DNA of 64,000 nucleotides from assembly GCF_023660105.1 (NCBI RefSeq), contig NZ_JAMHGA010000031.1:1-64000 (forward strand). Reading direction: 5' to 3'. Under the pieces are notes generated by a model. The model worked only from the letters and a program-made list of their open reading frames with translations. It was not told the DNA's origin and made no database searches. The first letter of the stretch is position 1. Every line of letters begins with the position of its first letter. Positions 6,364-17,150 of this stretch are shown in pieces. A program made the translations under genes and the position numbers. This stretch comes from Desulfovibrio aminophilus (GTDB taxonomy: Bacteria; Desulfobacterota; Desulfovibrionia; Desulfovibrionales; Desulfovibrionaceae).

Positions 6364-6921
6364 CTAGTCTCCCGGCCTTGGCGGGTAGACGCCCTGGAAG
6401 GCGATGCAGAACCGCAGGGCCAGGTGCGGCTGTTGGTTCTCGTGCTTCTCCATCCTGGGGTTGGTGAACGACGAGATCGCGCCCGCGCCCATTTCCTCGA
6501 TGTGCTCCGTCTCCGATGCGTAGGCCTTGAACTCGCTTGTCCGCCCCGCTAGGCAGCCTCTCCCGAGGGTATGCTGGGCCGCCACGGTATTGTTCGCCTT
6601 CACGGGGATGGAGCAGAGCTGATGCCTGTGCTGGGGGAAGTGCTCAACGGTCGCCATGCTCGCGGGAACGCCGATGGTCTGGCCCAGCTGCCGGGCGCTG
6701 AGCCCCTTGCCCTCTCCCGCGCCGCCGGGAATCCGGCCGTTCAGGTTGGGCAGGGCGAAGGTGGTCCTGCCGTCCCCGCCGTAGCGGTTGCCGATGAGCG
6801 CATGGAGCGCCGCCGTGTCCGGGGACGCGACCTGAAGCAGCTGCCCGTCGCAGCTCATCCAGCCCGCGGGCGTCGCGCCGTGGGCGAACAGGCGTATCTC
6901 GGCGATGAATTGGTCCGCCAT
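6364..6921 (-). CDS. Phage tail-collar domain protein (MdpB-like), third of three
   Basis: 185 residues. It opens with the tail-collar signature IRLFAHGATPAGWMSCDGQ (about 8-26), followed by the GGDGRTTFALPNLNGRIPGG segment (about 48-67), the core of the collar fold. The C-terminal part (FCIAFQG) is the usual beta end. These proteins are related to short tail-fibre collar domains and to the cyanobacterial microcystin-dependent protein MdpB. In bacteria they occur in triplets with no phage morphogenesis genes around. No signal peptide is seen and the function is not known. It lies 13 nt downstream of its neighbour and 10 nt upstream of the autotransporter, so it is co-transcribed with both. 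Confidence 0.85.
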   Translation of the reverse strand: MADQFIAEIRLFAHGATPAGWMSCDGQLLQVASPDTAALHALIGNRYGGDGRTTFALPNLNGRIPGGAGEGKGLSARQLGQTIGVPASMATVEHFPQHRHQLCSIPVKANNTVAAQHTLGRGCLAGRTSEFKAYASETEHIEEMGAGAISSFTNPRMEKHENQQPHLALRFCIAFQGVYPPRPGD

Positions 6922-6934
6922 CTCCGTTTCCTCC

Positions 6935-7462
6935 CTATTCCCGGCCGTCGGGCTGCGGGACGGTCCCCGTCAGGGCGATGCAGAAGTTGATCACCAGCGA
7001 AGGCTGCATGTTGTTGTGCTCCGCGCTGCCGCCCGCATTCGACACGCTGGCCTGATGCAGGCTGCCGGGGGTGGTTTTTTCCGGCTTGTTGGGCGAGTAT
7101 GGTTTCTTGTCGGCCGCGGGCATGGCGGCCAGCATGTGGCCCGCGGGAGAGGCATCTATTCCCTCGGAGCCTACGGCGAAGAGCTGGTGCGAGTGGGAGT
7201 AGAACTTGTCCGCCAGCGAGACGCGCTCCTGTCCGCCGGACACGCCGATGGGAGTGGCGCTGTTCTGCGCGCCGATGGCGGTCCTGCCCCGCAGGTCCGG
7301 GATGTTGAACGTGGTGTCCGTGGCGCCGAAGGCTCCGTTGAGCAGGTGCGCCAGCGCCGGGTATTGGGTGATGGGCAGCGACCGTCCGTCGCAGGGGGCC
7401 CATCCCTGGGGAACCGCCGGAGAGGCGAACAGGCGGATTTCTCCAAGATACGGCTGTTCCAT
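6935..7462 (-). CDS. Phage tail-collar domain protein (MdpB-like), second of three
   Basis: 175 residues with the same architecture as its neighbours: IRLFASPAVPQGWAPCDGR (about 9-27), then FNIPDLRGRTAIGAQ (about 52-66), and FCIALTG near the end. It is divergent enough from the other two copies that this is an old triplication. The start ATG at 7462 is 4 nt after the preceding gene's stop, which suggests translational coupling. There are no phage structural neighbours. It probably forms a surface or secreted trimeric structure with its paralogues, by analogy with collar domains, but that is inference. Confidence 0.85.
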   Translation of the reverse strand: MEQPYLGEIRLFASPAVPQGWAPCDGRSLPITQYPALAHLLNGAFGATDTTFNIPDLRGRTAIGAQNSATPIGVSGGQERVSLADKFYSHSHQLFAVGSEGIDASPAGHMLAAMPAADKKPYSPNKPEKTTPGSLHQASVSNAGGSAEHNNMQPSLVINFCIALTGTVPQPDGRE

Positions 7463-7466
7463 GGAA

Positions 7467-8021
7467 CTACTCCTTCCCTTCAGCGTCCGCTGTCCGGCCG
7501 TCGAGGGCGATGATGAAATTGATGAACATGGTCGGCATCATGTTCTCGTGCGTCATGGGCCTGGGCGCGCCGGTCTTGCCGATGGCCTCCGCGTGCATGG
7601 CGTGGGTGGATCCCTCCCTGCGGTACAGATTGAAGGCGATGCTGTCCGCCAGGTAGTTGCCCTTGGGCGTCGAGCTCGTTCCGTCGCGCTTTCCAGAGGC
7701 GTCGAGACCGGCTAGCAGGATGGAGTGCGAGTGGACCGGGATGTCGTTCTCGGTCAGCATCACCCGCTCCTCGCCGAGGGACTCTCCGCATCGACGCGGC
7801 GTCAGGCCCGGTCCGGTCCCGGCATGGACCGGGACGCGGCCCCGGAAGTCGGGCAGCAGGAATTTGTCCGCCGTGGGGCCCTGGCCGTAGGTGACGCCGA
7901 TGGCCGCATACAGCGCGGGATACTCGGCGATGGACAGACTGCTCCCGTCGCAGAGCGCCCAGCCCGTCGGGGCGTAGGTTCCCGCGATCATTCTGATTTC
8001 CCCGACATACTGGTCCGACAT
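7467..8021 (-). CDS. Phage tail-collar domain protein (MdpB-like), first of three
   Basis: 184 residues. Collar signature IRMIAGTYAPTGWALCDGS (about 8-26), then FLLPDFRGRVPVHAG (about 53-67), and a C-terminal FIIALDG. The start at 8021 is chosen over an in-frame ATG 105 nt upstream because CGGAGGGA lies 5 nt before it and the two paralogues begin at the same point (MxxxYxGEIR). It heads the operon: the promoter region with a CACGTG dyad lies 110-160 bp upstream. Function as for its paralogues: unknown, probably extracellular or structural. Confidence 0.85.
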   Translation of the reverse strand: MSDQYVGEIRMIAGTYAPTGWALCDGSSLSIAEYPALYAAIGVTYGQGPTADKFLLPDFRGRVPVHAGTGPGLTPRRCGESLGEERVMLTENDIPVHSHSILLAGLDASGKRDGTSSTPKGNYLADSIAFNLYRREGSTHAMHAEAIGKTGAPRPMTHENMMPTMFINFIIALDGRTADAEGKE

Positions 8022-8126
8022 GGCTTCCCTCCGGTGCGGGACTGGTCGTTTTTCCAGGCTTCGTCGTCCTCCGCCGGGCGGCCGCTGCGCGCGGACGGCG
8101 GAGTGCTCCGATGATTCTGGAATCAC

Positions 8127-11892: not shown

Positions 11893-12921
11893 ATGCGTTC
11901 CCGAGCTGAAAACCTGGCCGCCCTTCGCGCGGCGTTCCGTGAGATCGAGCCGGGCCAGAAGTTCGTGGTGGACGACTTCCGGCCCGAGGACGCCCTGGGC
12001 GTGGCCCTGCTCTACCATGCCGTCCACGGCGACGGCTTCGCCGTGGATTCGGTGTATGACCCCGATGCGATCCGCGCCGACGCGCGGGGGGGCGACCTGC
12101 ACATGGTGGTGGGCCGCACCGAACGCGGAGAGATCGTCGGCCTCTACTGCCTGTTCCGCAATCCCCCGGGACCGCGCATCATGGAGGCCGGAGGCTGGGC
12201 GGTGCTTCCCTCCTACCGCAACACCTCGCTGGCCATGCGCCTGGCCCAGCGCATCCACACCCGCCCCCCGGAACGCCTCGGCCTGGACGCGATCTTCGGC
12301 CAAAGCGTCTGCGACCACGTGATCACCCAGAAGATGAGCGACAAGTACGGGGCGGTCTCCTGCGCGCTGGAGCTGGACGCCATGCCGCCGCGGCCGGACG
12401 CCGGAGGGCCGCCCGCGCGGGTCACGCTTCTGGACGGCGTCATCGTCTTCCGGGACACGCCCCACGCCGTGCATTTGCCGGAGCCGTATGCGCCGGTCCT
12501 GCGCGGCATGTACTCCGCCTGGGGCCTGCCCCGCGACCTGCTTCCGGATGAGGGCCCTGCCGGGGCGTCGCGCCTCGCCGCGCAACGCGTGGACGGAGCC
12601 TCCCTGGTCCGGTTCAGCGCGGAGGGCTGCGGCCCCGACTTCGCCGACCGGCTGGCGGAACTGGAGCGGGAGAACGCGGATCGCCATGTCCGCCATCTCG
12701 TGCTGCCCCTGGACCGGCCGGGAGTGACGCAGGCGGTCCGGGCCGCGCGGCGCGCCGGGTTTTTCCTGGGCGGGCTGCTCCCGCTCTGGACCGGCCACGA
12801 CGCCCTTCTCCTGCAGAAGCTCGCATTTGCCCCGGACTTTTCCCGGGTGCAGGTGTATACGGACGAGGCCAAGCGCCTTTTGGACGCCGTGCGGAGCGAC
12901 TGGAGCGCCCCGCGCGCCTGA
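11893..12921 (+). CDS. GNAT-like protein, paralogue of the middle domain of the next gene
   Basis: 342 residues, cytosolic, no signal. The N-terminal half looks like a GNAT fold (VDDFRPEDALGVALLYHAVHG, then EIVGLYCLF and VLPSYRNTSLAMRLAQRI). The C-terminal half ends in FLGGLLPLWTGHDALLLQKL and VYTDEAKRLLDAVRSDW. The same landmarks in the same order occur in the middle of the downstream fusion (FLGGLLPRWFDDDGLLLQKV, LYSQRAHRILDLIRRD), so the two are paralogues. The usual acetyl-CoA loop (R/Q-x-x-G-x-G/A) is absent at the expected place, so acetyl transfer is doubtful. The start 11893 has GGAGG close upstream. It is probably in one operon with the fusion gene, 54 bp away. The substrate is unknown. 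Confidence 0.7.
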   Translation: MRSRAENLAALRAAFREIEPGQKFVVDDFRPEDALGVALLYHAVHGDGFAVDSVYDPDAIRADARGGDLHMVVGRTERGEIVGLYCLFRNPPGPRIMEAGGWAVLPSYRNTSLAMRLAQRIHTRPPERLGLDAIFGQSVCDHVITQKMSDKYGAVSCALELDAMPPRPDAGGPPARVTLLDGVIVFRDTPHAVHLPEPYAPVLRGMYSAWGLPRDLLPDEGPAGASRLAAQRVDGASLVRFSAEGCGPDFADRLAELERENADRHVRHLVLPLDRPGVTQAVRAARRAGFFLGGLLPLWTGHDALLLQKLAFAPDFSRVQVYTDEAKRLLDAVRSDWSAPRA

Positions 12922-12975
12922 CCGCGACGGCCCGGCCGCGCGGCCGGAACACGACTCATGCCCGAGGAGCCCGCC

Positions 12976-15900
12976 ATGCAAAGCCTTCGCCTGAACGCCG
13001 AGGATTACTTCCTGCTGGTCCGCGGACTGGCCTTCGCCGAGATCAAGGCCGCCCGCAACGTCTCCGACGTGTTCGGGGACGAACTGCAACTCGTCCCGGA
13101 CAGCGCCTTCCAGGACGAGCCGCTGAGCGCCACGCGGGAGGAACTCGTCCGCATGGCCGAGGGCGTGCGCGGCTTCTTCGGGCTGGGCGAACAATCGGTC
13201 GCGGAACTCGTGGCGACGCCGACCCCGGGGGGCTGGGCGGAACTGGTGGAGCGCGCCGCGGGGCCGCGCCCGGAGGTGGTGACGTTCTTCACTTCCGGCA
13301 GCACGGGCAAGCCCAAGCCCATTCTCCGCAAGTTCTTCCATCTGGAGCAGGACGCCCACCATCTGGGCCGCATGCTCGGCGGGGCCAGGCGGGTGGTCGC
13401 CCTGGTTCCTCCCCACCACATCTATGGGTTCATCTACACCATCCTCATCCCCAAGGTGCTGGGCGCGCCCTGCGTGATCAAGCGTTTCCAGCGCCCCGCC
13501 GCCATCGTCCGGAGCCTTGAGCCCTTCGACGCCGTGGTGGGCATCCCCCTGCTCTGGAAGCTCTGCTCCGAAACCAAGGAACGCTTCCCGGCCTCGGTCG
13601 TCGGCGTCACCTCCACCGGCCCCTGCCCGGCGGAGGTCATCCACGCCCTGCGCCGCCAGGGCCTGTCCGTGATGAACGAGATCTACGGCTCGTCCGAGAG
13701 CGGGGCCATGGGCCACCGGCAAAGTCCGGAGGCGCCGCTGACCCTCATGGCCACCTGGAAGCGGCTGGGCGGGAACCGCTTCGCCCGGGAGATGGAGGAC
13801 GGCTCCCTGTCCGAGCCCTTCGAGTTCCAGGACCAGCTGGAATGGCTGGACGAGACGCGCTTCACCGTCCAGAAGCGCCTGGACAGCGCGGTGCAGGTGG
13901 CGGGCATCAACATCTATCCGGCGCGCGTGCGCGAGGCCCTGCTGGAGCACCCGGAGGTGGAGGACTGCGCCGTGCGGCTCATGCGGCCGGAGGAGGGCGA
14001 CCGGCTCAAGGCCTTCGTGGTGCCCAAGGCGGGCCGCGAGAGCGGAGCGGAGCTTTCCGACGCGCTCCTGCGGCATCTCGCCTCCCGCGTCGGCCCCCTG
14101 GAGCAGCCCCGGTCGATCCTGTTCGGGCCGGAACTGCCGCGCAACGAGATGGGCAAGCTGGCCGACTGGACCATCGAGACGCGGCGGCTGGGCCAGACCC
14201 TGGACCAGGCGCTCCAGCGCCTGGAGCGCGAGCACGTCCCGGTCCAGCCGGGGCAGGAGTTCGCCGTGGACGCCTTCCAGCCCGGCGACGCCTGGGGCGT
14301 GGCGCGCCTGTTCTACGCCGAGCACGGCCGGTCCTTTCCCTTCGAGGCGTACTACATTCCCGAGCGGCTGCGGGAGGAGCATCGGCTGGGCCTGCTGCAC
14401 AGCGCCGTGGCCCGCACGCCCACGGGCGACATCGTGGGCTTCGGCAGCTGCTTCCGCAGCTCCGCGCCGTATCACGGGGTGTACGAGATCGGCGCCCACC
14501 AGGTGCTCGCGGACTACCGCGCCGCCCGCGTGGGATTCGCCCTCCAGGAGTACATCAAGGACGTGCTCCTGCCGGGCCGCCGGGTGGAGGTCTTTTTCAG
14601 CGAGGCGCCCTGCCACCAGGTGGTGACCCAGAAATTCGCCGCCATGAGCGGGTTCCGCGAGACGGCCCTGGAGATCGGGCTGATGCCCGCCGACGCCTAT
14701 GGCCCCACCGAGCACCCGGAGGACCGCGTCTCGGCCCTGCTGCTCTTCGGCGGCCGCGAGGACGCGCCGCGCGATATCCACTGTCCGGAGCGCCACATGG
14801 AGGCGGCGGCCTATTTCCTGGAGGGGACCGGAGTTCGGCGCACCCTGCTGGCCGCCCAGGGCACGCCCCCGGACGGGCATTGCACCCGGGCCTCCACCGA
14901 GCACTTCACCTTCGCCCAGGTGGCCCGCATGCACGTGCAGACCCTGGGACAGGACTTCGAGGCCACCCTGGACGGCTTCGAAACCCAGGCGGGCAGCCGC
15001 GGGGCCAGGGTGCTCCAGGTCTTCCTCAACCTGGGCGAGGCCTGGTGCCACACGGGCCTGGAGGCCTTGCGCCCGCGCGGCTACTTCCTGGGCGGGCTCC
15101 TGCCGCGCTGGTTCGACGACGACGGCCTGCTGCTCCAGAAGGTGCTGGACATGCCCGCCTTCGACTCCATCAAGCTCTATTCCCAGCGGGCCCACCGCAT
15201 CCTGGACCTCATCCGCCGCGACATCGAGTCCAACCCGGCCTGCCGCGCCCCGCGCCGGGCCAAGGCCCCGGCCCTGGCGGAAACCGCTGGATTCCGCGCC
15301 TCGGAGATCGCCGAGGTGAGCATCGCGGGCGAAGGCCTGACCGTGGAGGAGGTGGTGGCCGTGGCCCGCCACGGAGCCGCCGCCCGGCTGACGCGGGACG
15401 AGGGCGCGCTGGCCCGCGTCGAATCCTCGGCCGCGTTCATCGAGTGGGCCGTGCGCACCGGCGAGCCCATCTACGGGGTGAACACGGGCTTCGGCGGCAT
15501 GGCCAACATCGCCATCAAGGAGCAGGACCTCTGCGACCTGCAGAACAACCTGCTGCGTTTCCTCAACGTCTGCGCGGGCGACCACCTGCCCCAGGAGGAC
15601 GTGCGCGCGGGCATGCTGCTGCGGGCCAACTCCCACATGCGGGGCGTCTCCGGCGTCCGCCGGGAGCTCATCGAGCGGCTGCTGCTCTTCCTGAACAACG
15701 GCGTGACGCCCCTGGTGCGCGACATGGGCTCCATCGGCGCCAGCGGCGACCTGGCCCCCCTGGCCTCGATCACCGGAGCGCTCGTGGGCGCGGACGCCTG
15801 CTTCCGGGTCTCCATGGGCGGGGAGGAGGTGAGCTGCCTGGAGGCGCTGGAGCGCCTCGGGCTGAAGCCCCTGCCCCTGGGCCCCAAGGAGGGCCTGGGC

Positions 15901-16944
15901 ATGGTCAACGGCACCTCGGTGATGACCGGCATCGCCGCCAACTGCCTGTACGACGCGCGCAAGCTGGTCGCCCTGTCCCTGGGCTTCCACGCCCTGGCCG
16001 TCCAGGCGCTCGTGGGCTCCAACCAGTCCTTCCACCCCTTCATCCACCAGCACAAGCCGCACCCGGGCCAGGTCCTGGCGGCGGAGATCATGCTGGGCCA
16101 GCTGCGGGGTTCGTCCATGTGCCGCGACGAGCTGGACGGCCATCACGGCATCGTGGACGGCCAGCCCGCCCAGGACCGCTACTCGCTGCGCTGCCTGCCC
16201 CAGTTCCTCGGCCCGGTGCTGGAGGCGGTGGCCCGGACGCGGCGCACCCTGGAGACGGAGATCAACTCCGCCAACGACAACCCGCTCATCGACGGCGAGG
16301 GCTGCCTGAGCCTGCACAGCGGCAACTTCCTGGGGCAGTACGTGGCCGTGTCCATGGACCACCTGCGCTACTGCCTGGGCCTCATGACCAAGCACATGGA
16401 CGCCCAGATCGCCCTCATGGTGGCCCCGGAGTTCAACGGCGGCCTGCCCGCGTCCCTGGTGGGCAATCCCGCGCGGACGGTGAACATGGGCCTCAAGGGC
16501 CTGCAGATCGCCGCCAACTCCATCATGCCCCTGGTCTCGTTCTACGGCGCGCCCATCGCGGACCGCTTCCCGACCCACGCCGAGCAGTTCAACCAGAACA
16601 TCAACAGCCAGGGCTTCAACGCCGCCACCCTGGCCCGCAAGTCCCTGCGGGCGCTGGAGGCCTACGTGGCCATGTCGCTCATCTTCGGGGTCCAGGCCGT
16701 GTCGCTGCGGGCCTTCCGCATGACCGGGACATACGACCCGACCCCGTTGCTCTCCCCGGCCTCGGGGGCCCTGTACGAGGCGACGCTGGCCGCCCTCGGC
16801 CGCGCGCCCGGCGCGGAGCGCCCGCTCGTCTGGAACGACGACGAGCAGTCCCTGGAACAGCTGGTCCTGGCCCTGCGGGCCGACATCGCGGCGGACGGCG
16901 GCGTGGTCCGGGCCGTGGGCGACGCGGTGGTCAAACTGGGCTAG
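12976..16944 (+). CDS. Fusion: aryl/acyl-AMP ligase + GNAT-like + MIO aromatic ammonia-lyase
   Basis: 1322 residues in three parts. Residues 1 to about 415 are an ANL adenylating enzyme: [12 protein letters not shown] (about 104-115), HHIYG, EIYGSSESG and a C-terminal K394 in NEMGKLADW, the A10 lysine. About 420-760 is a GNAT-like module paralogous to the preceding gene. About 770-1322 is a PAL/TAL/HAL lyase: Y833 in IYGVNTGFGG, MIO triad A922-S923-G924, INSANDNPL, and E1203/Q1207 in AEQFNQNINS. The lyase would release cinnamate-type acid from an aromatic amino acid and the ligase would activate it as AMP or CoA ester. F862-L863 in LLRFLN resembles phenylalanine-type selectivity. The start 12976 is favoured over 12958 by a GGAG 6 nt upstream. 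The final product is unknown; an aminomutase is an alternative for the lyase part. No stop or frameshift is seen at the joints. Confidence 0.85.
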   Translation: MQSLRLNAEDYFLLVRGLAFAEIKAARNVSDVFGDELQLVPDSAFQDEPLSATREELVRMAEGVRGFFGLGEQSVAELVATPTPGGWAELVERAAGPRPEVVTFFTSGSTGKPKPILRKFFHLEQDAHHLGRMLGGARRVVALVPPHHIYGFIYTILIPKVLGAPCVIKRFQRPAAIVRSLEPFDAVVGIPLLWKLCSETKERFPASVVGVTSTGPCPAEVIHALRRQGLSVMNEIYGSSESGAMGHRQSPEAPLTLMATWKRLGGNRFAREMEDGSLSEPFEFQDQLEWLDETRFTVQKRLDSAVQVAGINIYPARVREALLEHPEVEDCAVRLMRPEEGDRLKAFVVPKAGRESGAELSDALLRHLASRVGPLEQPRSILFGPELPRNEMGKLADWTIETRRLGQTLDQALQRLEREHVPVQPGQEFAVDAFQPGDAWGVARLFYAEHGRSFPFEAYYIPERLREEHRLGLLHSAVARTPTGDIVGFGSCFRSSAPYHGVYEIGAHQVLADYRAARVGFALQEYIKDVLLPGRRVEVFFSEAPCHQVVTQKFAAMSGFRETALEIGLMPADAYGPTEHPEDRVSALLLFGGREDAPRDIHCPERHMEAAAYFLEGTGVRRTLLAAQGTPPDGHCTRASTEHFTFAQVARMHVQTLGQDFEATLDGFETQAGSRGARVLQVFLNLGEAWCHTGLEALRPRGYFLGGLLPRWFDDDGLLLQKVLDMPAFDSIKLYSQRAHRILDLIRRDIESNPACRAPRRAKAPALAETAGFRASEIAEVSIAGEGLTVEEVVAVARHGAAARLTRDEGALARVESSAAFIEWAVRTGEPIYGVNTGFGGMANIAIKEQDLCDLQNNLLRFLNVCAGDHLPQEDVRAGMLLRANSHMRGVSGVRRELIERLLLFLNNGVTPLVRDMGSIGASGDLAPLASITGALVGADACFRVSMGGEEVSCLEALERLGLKPLPLGPKEGLGMVNGTSVMTGIAANCLYDARKLVALSLGFHALAVQALVGSNQSFHPFIHQHKPHPGQVLAAEIMLGQLRGSSMCRDELDGHHGIVDGQPAQDRYSLRCLPQFLGPVLEAVARTRRTLETEINSANDNPLIDGEGCLSLHSGNFLGQYVAVSMDHLRYCLGLMTKHMDAQIALMVAPEFNGGLPASLVGNPARTVNMGLKGLQIAANSIMPLVSFYGAPIADRFPTHAEQFNQNINSQGFNAATLARKSLRALEAYVAMSLIFGVQAVSLRAFRMTGTYDPTPLLSPASGALYEATLAALGRAPGAERPLVWNDDEQSLEQLVLALRADIAADGGVVRAVGDAVVKLG

Positions 16945-17033: not shown

Positions 17034-17066
17034 AAAAAGGGCTTGCGGATTTCTCCGCAAGCCCTT
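17034..17066 (-). terminator. Rho-independent terminator of tRNA-Phe
   Basis: A perfect 13-bp stem (17037-17049 with 17054-17066) and 4-nt loop, followed on the minus strand by TTT after the closing TT. It starts 8 bp beyond the tRNA 3' end. Confidence 0.85.
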
Positions 17067-17074
17067 GTCGTCCG

Positions 17075-17150
17075 TGGTGCCGAGGGACAGAATCGAACTG
17101 CCCACACGGGGATTTTCAGTCCCCTGCTCTACCAACTGAGCTACCTCGGC
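17075..17150 (-). tRNA. tRNA-Phe (GAA)
   Basis: 76 nt including an encoded CCA. Acceptor GCCGAGG/CCTCGGC, D stem GCTC/GAGC, anticodon stem GGGGA/TCCCC with loop CTGAAAA (anticodon GAA), variable loop GTGTG, T arm GGCAG-TTCGATT-CTGTC with one G-U pair. All helices close. It has its own promoter and terminator and sits between the PAL fusion and the AOR operon. Confidence 0.97.

Follow-up and report, generated by a model that had tools for sequence, protein, structure and literature searches.

The window considered here is a stretch of 64,000 nucleotides of Desulfovibrio aminophilus (contig NZ_JAMHGA010000031.1, positions 1 to 64,000), and its subject is a two-gene unit on the plus strand, in which a stand-alone protein of the GNAT type is followed by a trifunctional fusion of an acyl-activating ligase, a tandem-GNAT domain, and an aromatic ammonia-lyase. 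Judged from its sequence, the fusion is somewhat more probably than otherwise a self-contained cinnamoyl-conjugating enzyme and, in this reading, an acyl-donor variant of a wider system of anaerobes. Its C-terminal domain, which carries the triad forming the 4-methylideneimidazole-5-one (MIO) group, would with high likelihood deaminate L-phenylalanine (Phe) to trans-cinnamate. The N-terminal domain, which resembles p-coumarate-CoA ligase (pCL), is likely to perform the activation, making cinnamoyl-AMP and probably cinnamoyl-CoA. The middle tandem-GNAT domain would then probably move the cinnamoyl group onto an amine, which is expected to be small and amino-acid-like, to give an N-cinnamoyl amide. 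The stand-alone GNAT may be a second acyltransferase or a partner, with the same molecule as its target. The acceptor might be made or modified by the HisC-like aminotransferase, molybdenum (Mo) enzyme, and exporter system of the same genomes, a proposal that we hold at slightly less than even chances. Elsewhere the ligase, carrier protein, and GNAT occur as separate proteins, and the fusion would be a version of that arrangement supplied by phenylalanine.

The joining of ligase, GNAT-like domain, and lyase in one frame had been proposed in a first-pass annotation of this DNA and is confirmed at 12976-16944 (+). The open frame runs from 12958 to 16944 (+; 1328 codons), and an in-frame ATG at 12976, preceded by a GAGGAG stretch, lines up with the starts of the fusion's relatives and gives a protein of 1322 amino acids. 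All on the plus strand, the ligase domain occupies 12976-14187, the tandem-GNAT domain 14188-15252, and the lyase domain 15310-16941. The motif positions given earlier are exact: a ten-residue motif begins at residue 106, the A10 lysine falls on K394, and A922-S923-G924 form the MIO triad. The stand-alone gene (11893-12921 (+), 342 amino acids) ends 54 bp before the fusion gene, and its product is, as claimed, a paralogue of the middle domain (34% identity over 329 residues).

The lyase domain matches Lyase_aromatic (PF00221) with 475.4 bits against a cut-off of 27.3, and its GSIGASGD segment, which includes the MIO-forming Ala-Ser-Gly, is kept in all five genomes that carry the fusion. The nearest solved chains are cyanobacterial phenylalanine ammonia-lyases (PALs; 3czo, 2nyn, 5ltm, and 2nyf), at 674 bits, and we take 3czo, 2nyn, and 5ltm to be AvPAL. 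The lyase is identical to 3czo in 304 of 533 residues over the full length and shares its selectivity and MIO residues. The solved chains (537-567 residues) consist of a lyase and nothing else, whereas the present lyase forms the C-terminal end of a 1322-residue fusion and, unlike them, sits in Desulfovibrio- and Desulfobulbaceae-type genomes. Its selectivity pair is F-L (LLRFL in five of five fusions), as in 3czo and 2nyn, and the lyase of the photoactive yellow protein (PYP) operon of Indioceanicola, taken for comparison, has an H-L pair (LIYHL). The choice between Phe and tyrosine (Tyr) is presumably determined by this pair, and the substrate should, from the residues present, be Phe rather than Tyr. 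An earlier proposal that the protein deaminates Phe or Tyr is thus supported by sequence for Phe, through the PAL type, the F-L pair, and the likeness to 3czo, and is made less likely for Tyr, as the H-L pair is missing. Within the phylum a PAL of this kind is uncommon, for the other lyase matches are 34-39% identical at E<=1e-60 in a sample of 395 genomes of the phylum and 33-38% identical on plasmids (best 12 of 850).

The assignment of the N-terminal domain to the ANL ligases is borne out by the A3, YGSSES, and A10 motifs and by matches to AMP-binding (PF00501; 48.1 bits, cut-off 29.9) and AMP-binding_C (PF13193; 48.4 bits, cut-off 24.5). Of the families that span the entire domain, the best is TIGR02372 (4-coumarate--CoA ligase), matched from model position 3 to 386 of 386, and because its 261.6 bits are under the cut-off of 334.7, the domain is called pCL-like. 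The TSGSTG (A3), YGSSESG, and GKLxDW lysine (K394) regions are kept in five of five fusions, and the final proline of TSGSTGxPKP is altered in two of them. The nearest type is the p-coumarate ligase of PYP operons, and the identity to Pcl of Indioceanicola is 39.5% over 354 aligned residues. On the Indioceanicola plasmid the gene order is pyp, pcl, lyase, and in Halorhodospira it is likewise pyp, pcl, tal, with p-coumarate as the PYP chromophore, according to PMC12826048. What these operons of Halorhodospira halophila and Indioceanicola profundi share with the fusion is that a pCL-type ligase precedes an MIO ammonia-lyase. There, however, the genes are separate and the lyase is of the Tyr type, whereas here a GNAT domain is fused between the two and the lyase is of the Phe type. 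We infer that the fusion may descend from a cassette like pyp-pcl-tal, with a lyase that is not of that Tyr type.

The middle domain had been described as GNAT-like, and weak family matches, PDB profile rows, and a predicted GNAT fold of its first half uphold this description. It belongs to a large GNAT family that is widespread in anaerobes, a point absent from the first-pass annotation. In a Pfam scan the middle domain itself has no match; Acetyltransf_1 is found at E<=0.1 in 20 of 41 family members, and the stand-alone GNAT matches it with 23.7 bits (cut-off 20.7). A family-profile search of the PDB gives mostly acetyltransferases at weak scores, the top row being 4zm6 (named glucosaminidase, E 1.3e-4) and the first one labelled as an acetyltransferase being 1s3z (E 0.019). 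In an AlphaFold model (pLDDT 90, pTM 0.87), residues 38-209, the first half, adopt a GNAT fold (Z 13.2 to 2j8m, root-mean-square deviation (rmsd) 2.8, 162 residues aligned). The top structural rows of this half are mixed, comprising phosphinothricin-type, ribosomal-protein, and N-terminal acetyltransferases besides unnamed GNATs, so that amino-acid-type N-acetyltransferases are matched among other GNATs. The second half of the model looks, by the order of strands and helices assessed by eye, like a second GNAT-like unit. Family proteins have about 345 amino acids, and an alignment of 41 of 42 members (the partial L019 stretch was left out, and three further stretches that contain stops or N had been skipped before) reveals a conserved C-terminal motif, GYFxGGxxPRWFDDDG. 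Tandem GNATs are known among N-acyltransferases: the bleomycin N-acetyltransferase (2zw4/2zw6) is aligned by Foldseek (2zw6, 305 columns, E 1.9e-8), loosely (rmsd 11), and ORF14 (2wpw/2wpx), which we take to be the tandem GNAT of the clavulanate cluster, matches the family profile weakly (E 0.38). The present family differs from these in its low identity (14% to 2zw6), its own C-terminal motif, and its fusion to a ligase and a lyase.

The surroundings of the closest relatives bear on the function of the middle domain. In a tree of 44 chosen GNAT sequences the middle domains cluster, with a support of 0.90, with GNATs of L041 (the same as L098), L042 (the second GNAT of L099), contig C23 of the D. 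aminophilus genome, and L097. Three of these four closest stand-alone relatives (C23, L097, and L099) lie at most 1.1 kb from an ANL ligase gene, and in L099 an acyl carrier protein (ACP) gene stands between the ligase and the GNAT of the fusion's clade. A ligase feeding this type of GNAT therefore looks usual, and the fusion looks like this usual arrangement with its own acid supply added. The proposal that the acid may be handed to an acceptor through the GNAT has gained support from these ligase neighbours and from the carrier protein found once between the two. Ketosynthase- and dehydratase-like genes were noticed by eye, with no family search, at L098 2610-7242, in the vicinity of the GNAT that is the nearest relative of the middle domain.

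The three-domain order was looked for elsewhere and recurs, the checked catalytic motifs being kept. A scan of genome contigs with the middle domain gave 25 loci, two of which carry the fusion, L015 (Desulfovibrio sp.) and L016 (Desulfobulbaceae). Within the family of D. aminophilus the fusion occurs in 2 of 288 genomes (its own and G003, which by coordinates is the genome of L015), and within the family of the L016 genome in 3 of 93 (G667, G694, and G726). In the sample of 395 genomes of the phylum, where the best candidates per genome were scored and whose list was not used for co-occurrence, a full-length match was found in the D. aminophilus genome only. The total is five distinct genomes, with 66.6-89.4% identity over the fusion, and chance or mis-assembly is therefore excluded. 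In all five, the first family gene met on going upstream from the fusion is an orthologue of the stand-alone GNAT, although in G694 an IS200-type transposase reading frame separates the two; the surroundings of the two-gene unit vary among genomes. Stand-alone GNATs and middle domains group the five genomes alike in the tree of hand-picked sequences, which suggests that the pair is inherited or moved as one. At L090 1-900 (G667:C49), in the Desulfobulbaceae genome, a second copy of the N-terminal part of the ligase, 54-55% identical, is cut by the contig end and is perhaps part of a second ligase or fusion.

The wider system is seen where the GNAT family occurs apart from the fusion. In 17 fusion-free loci of at least 8 kb, taken from the 25 (six of which, shorter than 8 kb, were left out of the neighbour table), 20 of 24 GNAT genes lie within 6 kb of a gene for a HisC-like aminotransferase, a protein family designated c2, or the large subunit of a Mo enzyme; the others are those of L027, L028, L029, and one of three in L030. 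Neighbourhood genes came from a simple open reading frame (ORF) picker, which gives wrong-strand frames in G+C-rich loci such as the window, and positions there rest on tblastn. Two loci hold the most complete sets: L095 has c2, HisC, the large, FeS, and FAD subunits of the Mo enzyme, an MFS transporter, a GNAT, an RsbW-like ATPase, an NMT1-type protein, and a Cache-HAMP-SpoIIE protein; L099 holds c2, HisC, Mo-enzyme subunits, MFS, and GNAT and, past other ORFs, the ligase, ACP, and fusion-clade GNAT. In NCBIfam and Pfam scans the hisC model was over its cut-off in both aminotransferase members scanned, the Mo enzyme matched the models of xanthine dehydrogenase and its relatives, in every case under the cut-off, and neither protein was pointed to a pathway. 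The c2 proteins, exemplified by L024 376-1692, are predicted to combine a SpoIIAB/RsbW-like domain with a tandem-GNAT-like half. Two members have no Pfam match at E<=0.01, three scanned members have no family over cut-off, and one shows a sub-threshold HATPase_c_2 match at residues 11-129. The c2 model (pLDDT 88) matches chains of SpoIIAB/RsbW anti-sigma kinases (1til_E, E 1.2e-7, TM 0.74 of target, 141 columns), with weaker matches to single GNATs; unlike those kinases, c2 has the extra tandem-GNAT-like half, its profile aligning to the tandem-GNAT family from 150 to 435 (hhalign probability 94.8, E 5.4e-8, 283 columns, 13% identity). Among the 395 genomes c2 is found in 47 and the GNAT family in 49, with both in 44, c2 only in 3, and GNAT only in 5. 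The co-occurrence has p = 5e-49, a value that ignores the kinship of genomes and lacks a control family, and in 23 of the 44 genomes the two genes lie on the same contig at most 15 kb apart.

A broader reading, which we put forward as tentative and would give rather less than even odds, is that an undescribed small-molecule system of anaerobes makes and senses its own product and that the fusion is its Phe-fed acyl-donor arm, the acyl group being cinnamoyl. In such a system the HisC-like aminotransferase, Mo enzyme, and tandem-GNATs might build an N-acylated signal or effector exported by MFS/MATE pumps, and its read-out might fall to the SpoIIAB-GNAT hybrid c2 together with a Cache-HAMP-SpoIIE phosphatase and a binding protein of the NMT1 type. 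Genes for the NMT1-type binding protein, the RsbW-like ATPase, and the Cache-HAMP-SpoIIE phosphatase are consecutive at L095 1456-4821 and L080 10369-13727, beside c2/HisC or GNAT, a row that suggests a ligand-sensing branch. All five fusion genomes carry c2, whose base rate in the phylum sample is 47 of 395, as well as the Mo enzyme and a HisC-like gene beside c2. At L016 Mo-enzyme subunit genes and an MFS gene stand divergent from the two-gene unit at 0.3-4 kb, the nearest Mo-enzyme gene being 321 bp off, and at L088 an MFS gene lies 0.5 kb from the unit. At L015, L089, and in the window, none of these genes was found within 6 kb of the unit in the available stretch. The pieces are scattered in the D. 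aminophilus genome: on contig C23, c2, HisC, and a SpoIIE protein that also has an RsbW-like domain are encoded at about 20-25 kb, a ligase-GNAT-Mo enzyme group lies at about 78-85 kb, and at 126 kb there is a further family GNAT with none of the gene set within 6 kb.

Several observations weigh against the cinnamoyl-conjugating enzyme and its place in this system. The ligase, below its cut-off, is not filed as a member of the 4-coumarate--CoA ligase family, and the lyase scores 392.8 bits with TIGR01226 against a cut-off of 519.15 (model positions 30-504 of 680), a model that may fit PAL of eukaryotic length. The loop past the conserved YEIG strand (YR-AARVG) deviates, by eye, from the textbook GNAT loop pattern. 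Around L041 (L098), the clade member nearest to the middle domain, no ligase match lies within 6 kb, on a contig that starts 1.2 kb away. The link to the wider system is mostly one of co-occurrence because the Mo-enzyme genes lie away from the unit in four of the five fusion genomes and the aminotransferase gene in all five. In c2, moreover, the same tandem-GNAT fold is predicted next to a SpoIIAB-like domain, perhaps for sensing rather than catalysis.

Since c2 is predicted to have this fold beside a signalling-type domain, a sensing role is the main rival. The tandem-GNAT would then be a sensor or regulator that binds CoA or cinnamoyl-CoA or modifies the ligase lysine, and the product of the enzyme would simply be cinnamoyl-CoA. 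GNAT acetyltransferases are known to control ANL ligases, and the predicted architecture of c2 suggests a use in ligand sensing; but the family recurs with biosynthetic-type genes, in L099 with a ligase and an ACP, and a stand-alone GNAT accompanies the fusion in five of five genomes. Moreover, the ligase-controlling GNATs are, to our knowledge, single domains. We regard this role as unlikely. A catabolic route, in which cinnamoyl-CoA formed from Phe is reduced or oxidised to gain energy and the GNAT parts are incidental, appears improbable. Anaerobes use cinnamoyl-CoA routes, and a gene for aldehyde ferredoxin oxidoreductase adjoins the unit with an acetyl-CoA-synthetase-like gene (by eye) beyond it; yet the fusion is sporadic (2 of 288 family genomes) and keeps the GNAT domain in five of five cases.

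A protein acceptor, cinnamoylated at a lysine or the N-terminus or receiving a chromophore as in PYP, has the ligase type and ligase-lyase order of the pyp-pcl-tal operons in its favour but is very improbable, as PYP carries p-coumarate, this lyase has the Phe-type pair, and the best PYP (TIGR02373) match in the D. aminophilus genome (99.99% complete) has 19.8 bits against a cut-off of 143.05. The claim that the window lacks a PYP gene thus holds genome-wide for matches over that cut-off; TIGR02373 matches at E<=1 also occur in 11 of 14 control genomes, none above it. PYP chromophore synthesis was rejected on the same two grounds, namely the lack of a PYP match over cut-off and the Phe-type lyase. 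An aryl-polyene or flexirubin route was rejected as well, the lyase having 271.5 bits against a FlxA cut-off of 700, though no search aimed at aryl-polyene genes was made in the window. Five Pseudoalteromonas plasmid matches with acyltransferase and dehydrase genes cover just 56-59% of the query, in two pieces. The cinnamoyl-conjugating enzyme remains the preferred interpretation, and the overall proposal of the first-pass annotation is partly supported: the sequence agrees with its domain identities and speaks against its Tyr option.

If this interpretation is true, an entire phenylpropanoid-amide pathway, consisting of deamination, activation, and transfer, is contained in one chain, and such chemistry would be unexpected in anaerobic bacteria. 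The predicted cinnamoyl group would offer chemistry its first point of access to a gene set that is widespread, and expression and one-pot assay would require a single protein. Among the matches listed from the open-licence PMC literature, as far as their excerpts extend, no description was found of the fusion, the GNAT/HisC/Mo-enzyme set, or the SpoIIAB-GNAT hybrid. Each of the three domains is already known.

The 5′ neighbour of the unit is a divergent 7TM-DISM histidine kinase gene. On the 3′ side follow a terminator-like G+C-rich inverted repeat (17039-17066 (+), seen by eye and unscored by program), a tRNA-Phe gene (17075-17150, -), and then the aldehyde ferredoxin oxidoreductase gene. 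A tRNA gene adjoins the fusion on its 3′ side in two of five loci, the other being tRNA-Leu in L089 (1982-2068, -); in L015 and L088 no tRNA is directly downstream, and the L016 locus covers less than 0.8 kb downstream. A mobile island at the tRNA-Phe was rejected, as a search of the window that allowed up to 3 substitutions gave no second copy of the last 22 bases of the tRNA. A foreign base composition was rejected too, the G+C fraction at third codon positions being 0.954 in the fusion and 0.886 in the stand-alone GNAT against 0.929-0.977 in four neighbouring genes. In the Desulfovibrio metagenome-assembled genome an MCPsignal chemotaxis-type protein with a hemerythrin domain is encoded 3′ of the fusion (L015 13196-14893), and a ThiF-family protein lies within the Sporomusa version of the cluster (L032 7645-8433). 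Elsewhere in the window, at 6364-8126 (-), three small adjacent proteins with similar starts resemble, by eye and with no family search, phage-tail-collar or microcystin-dependent proteins.

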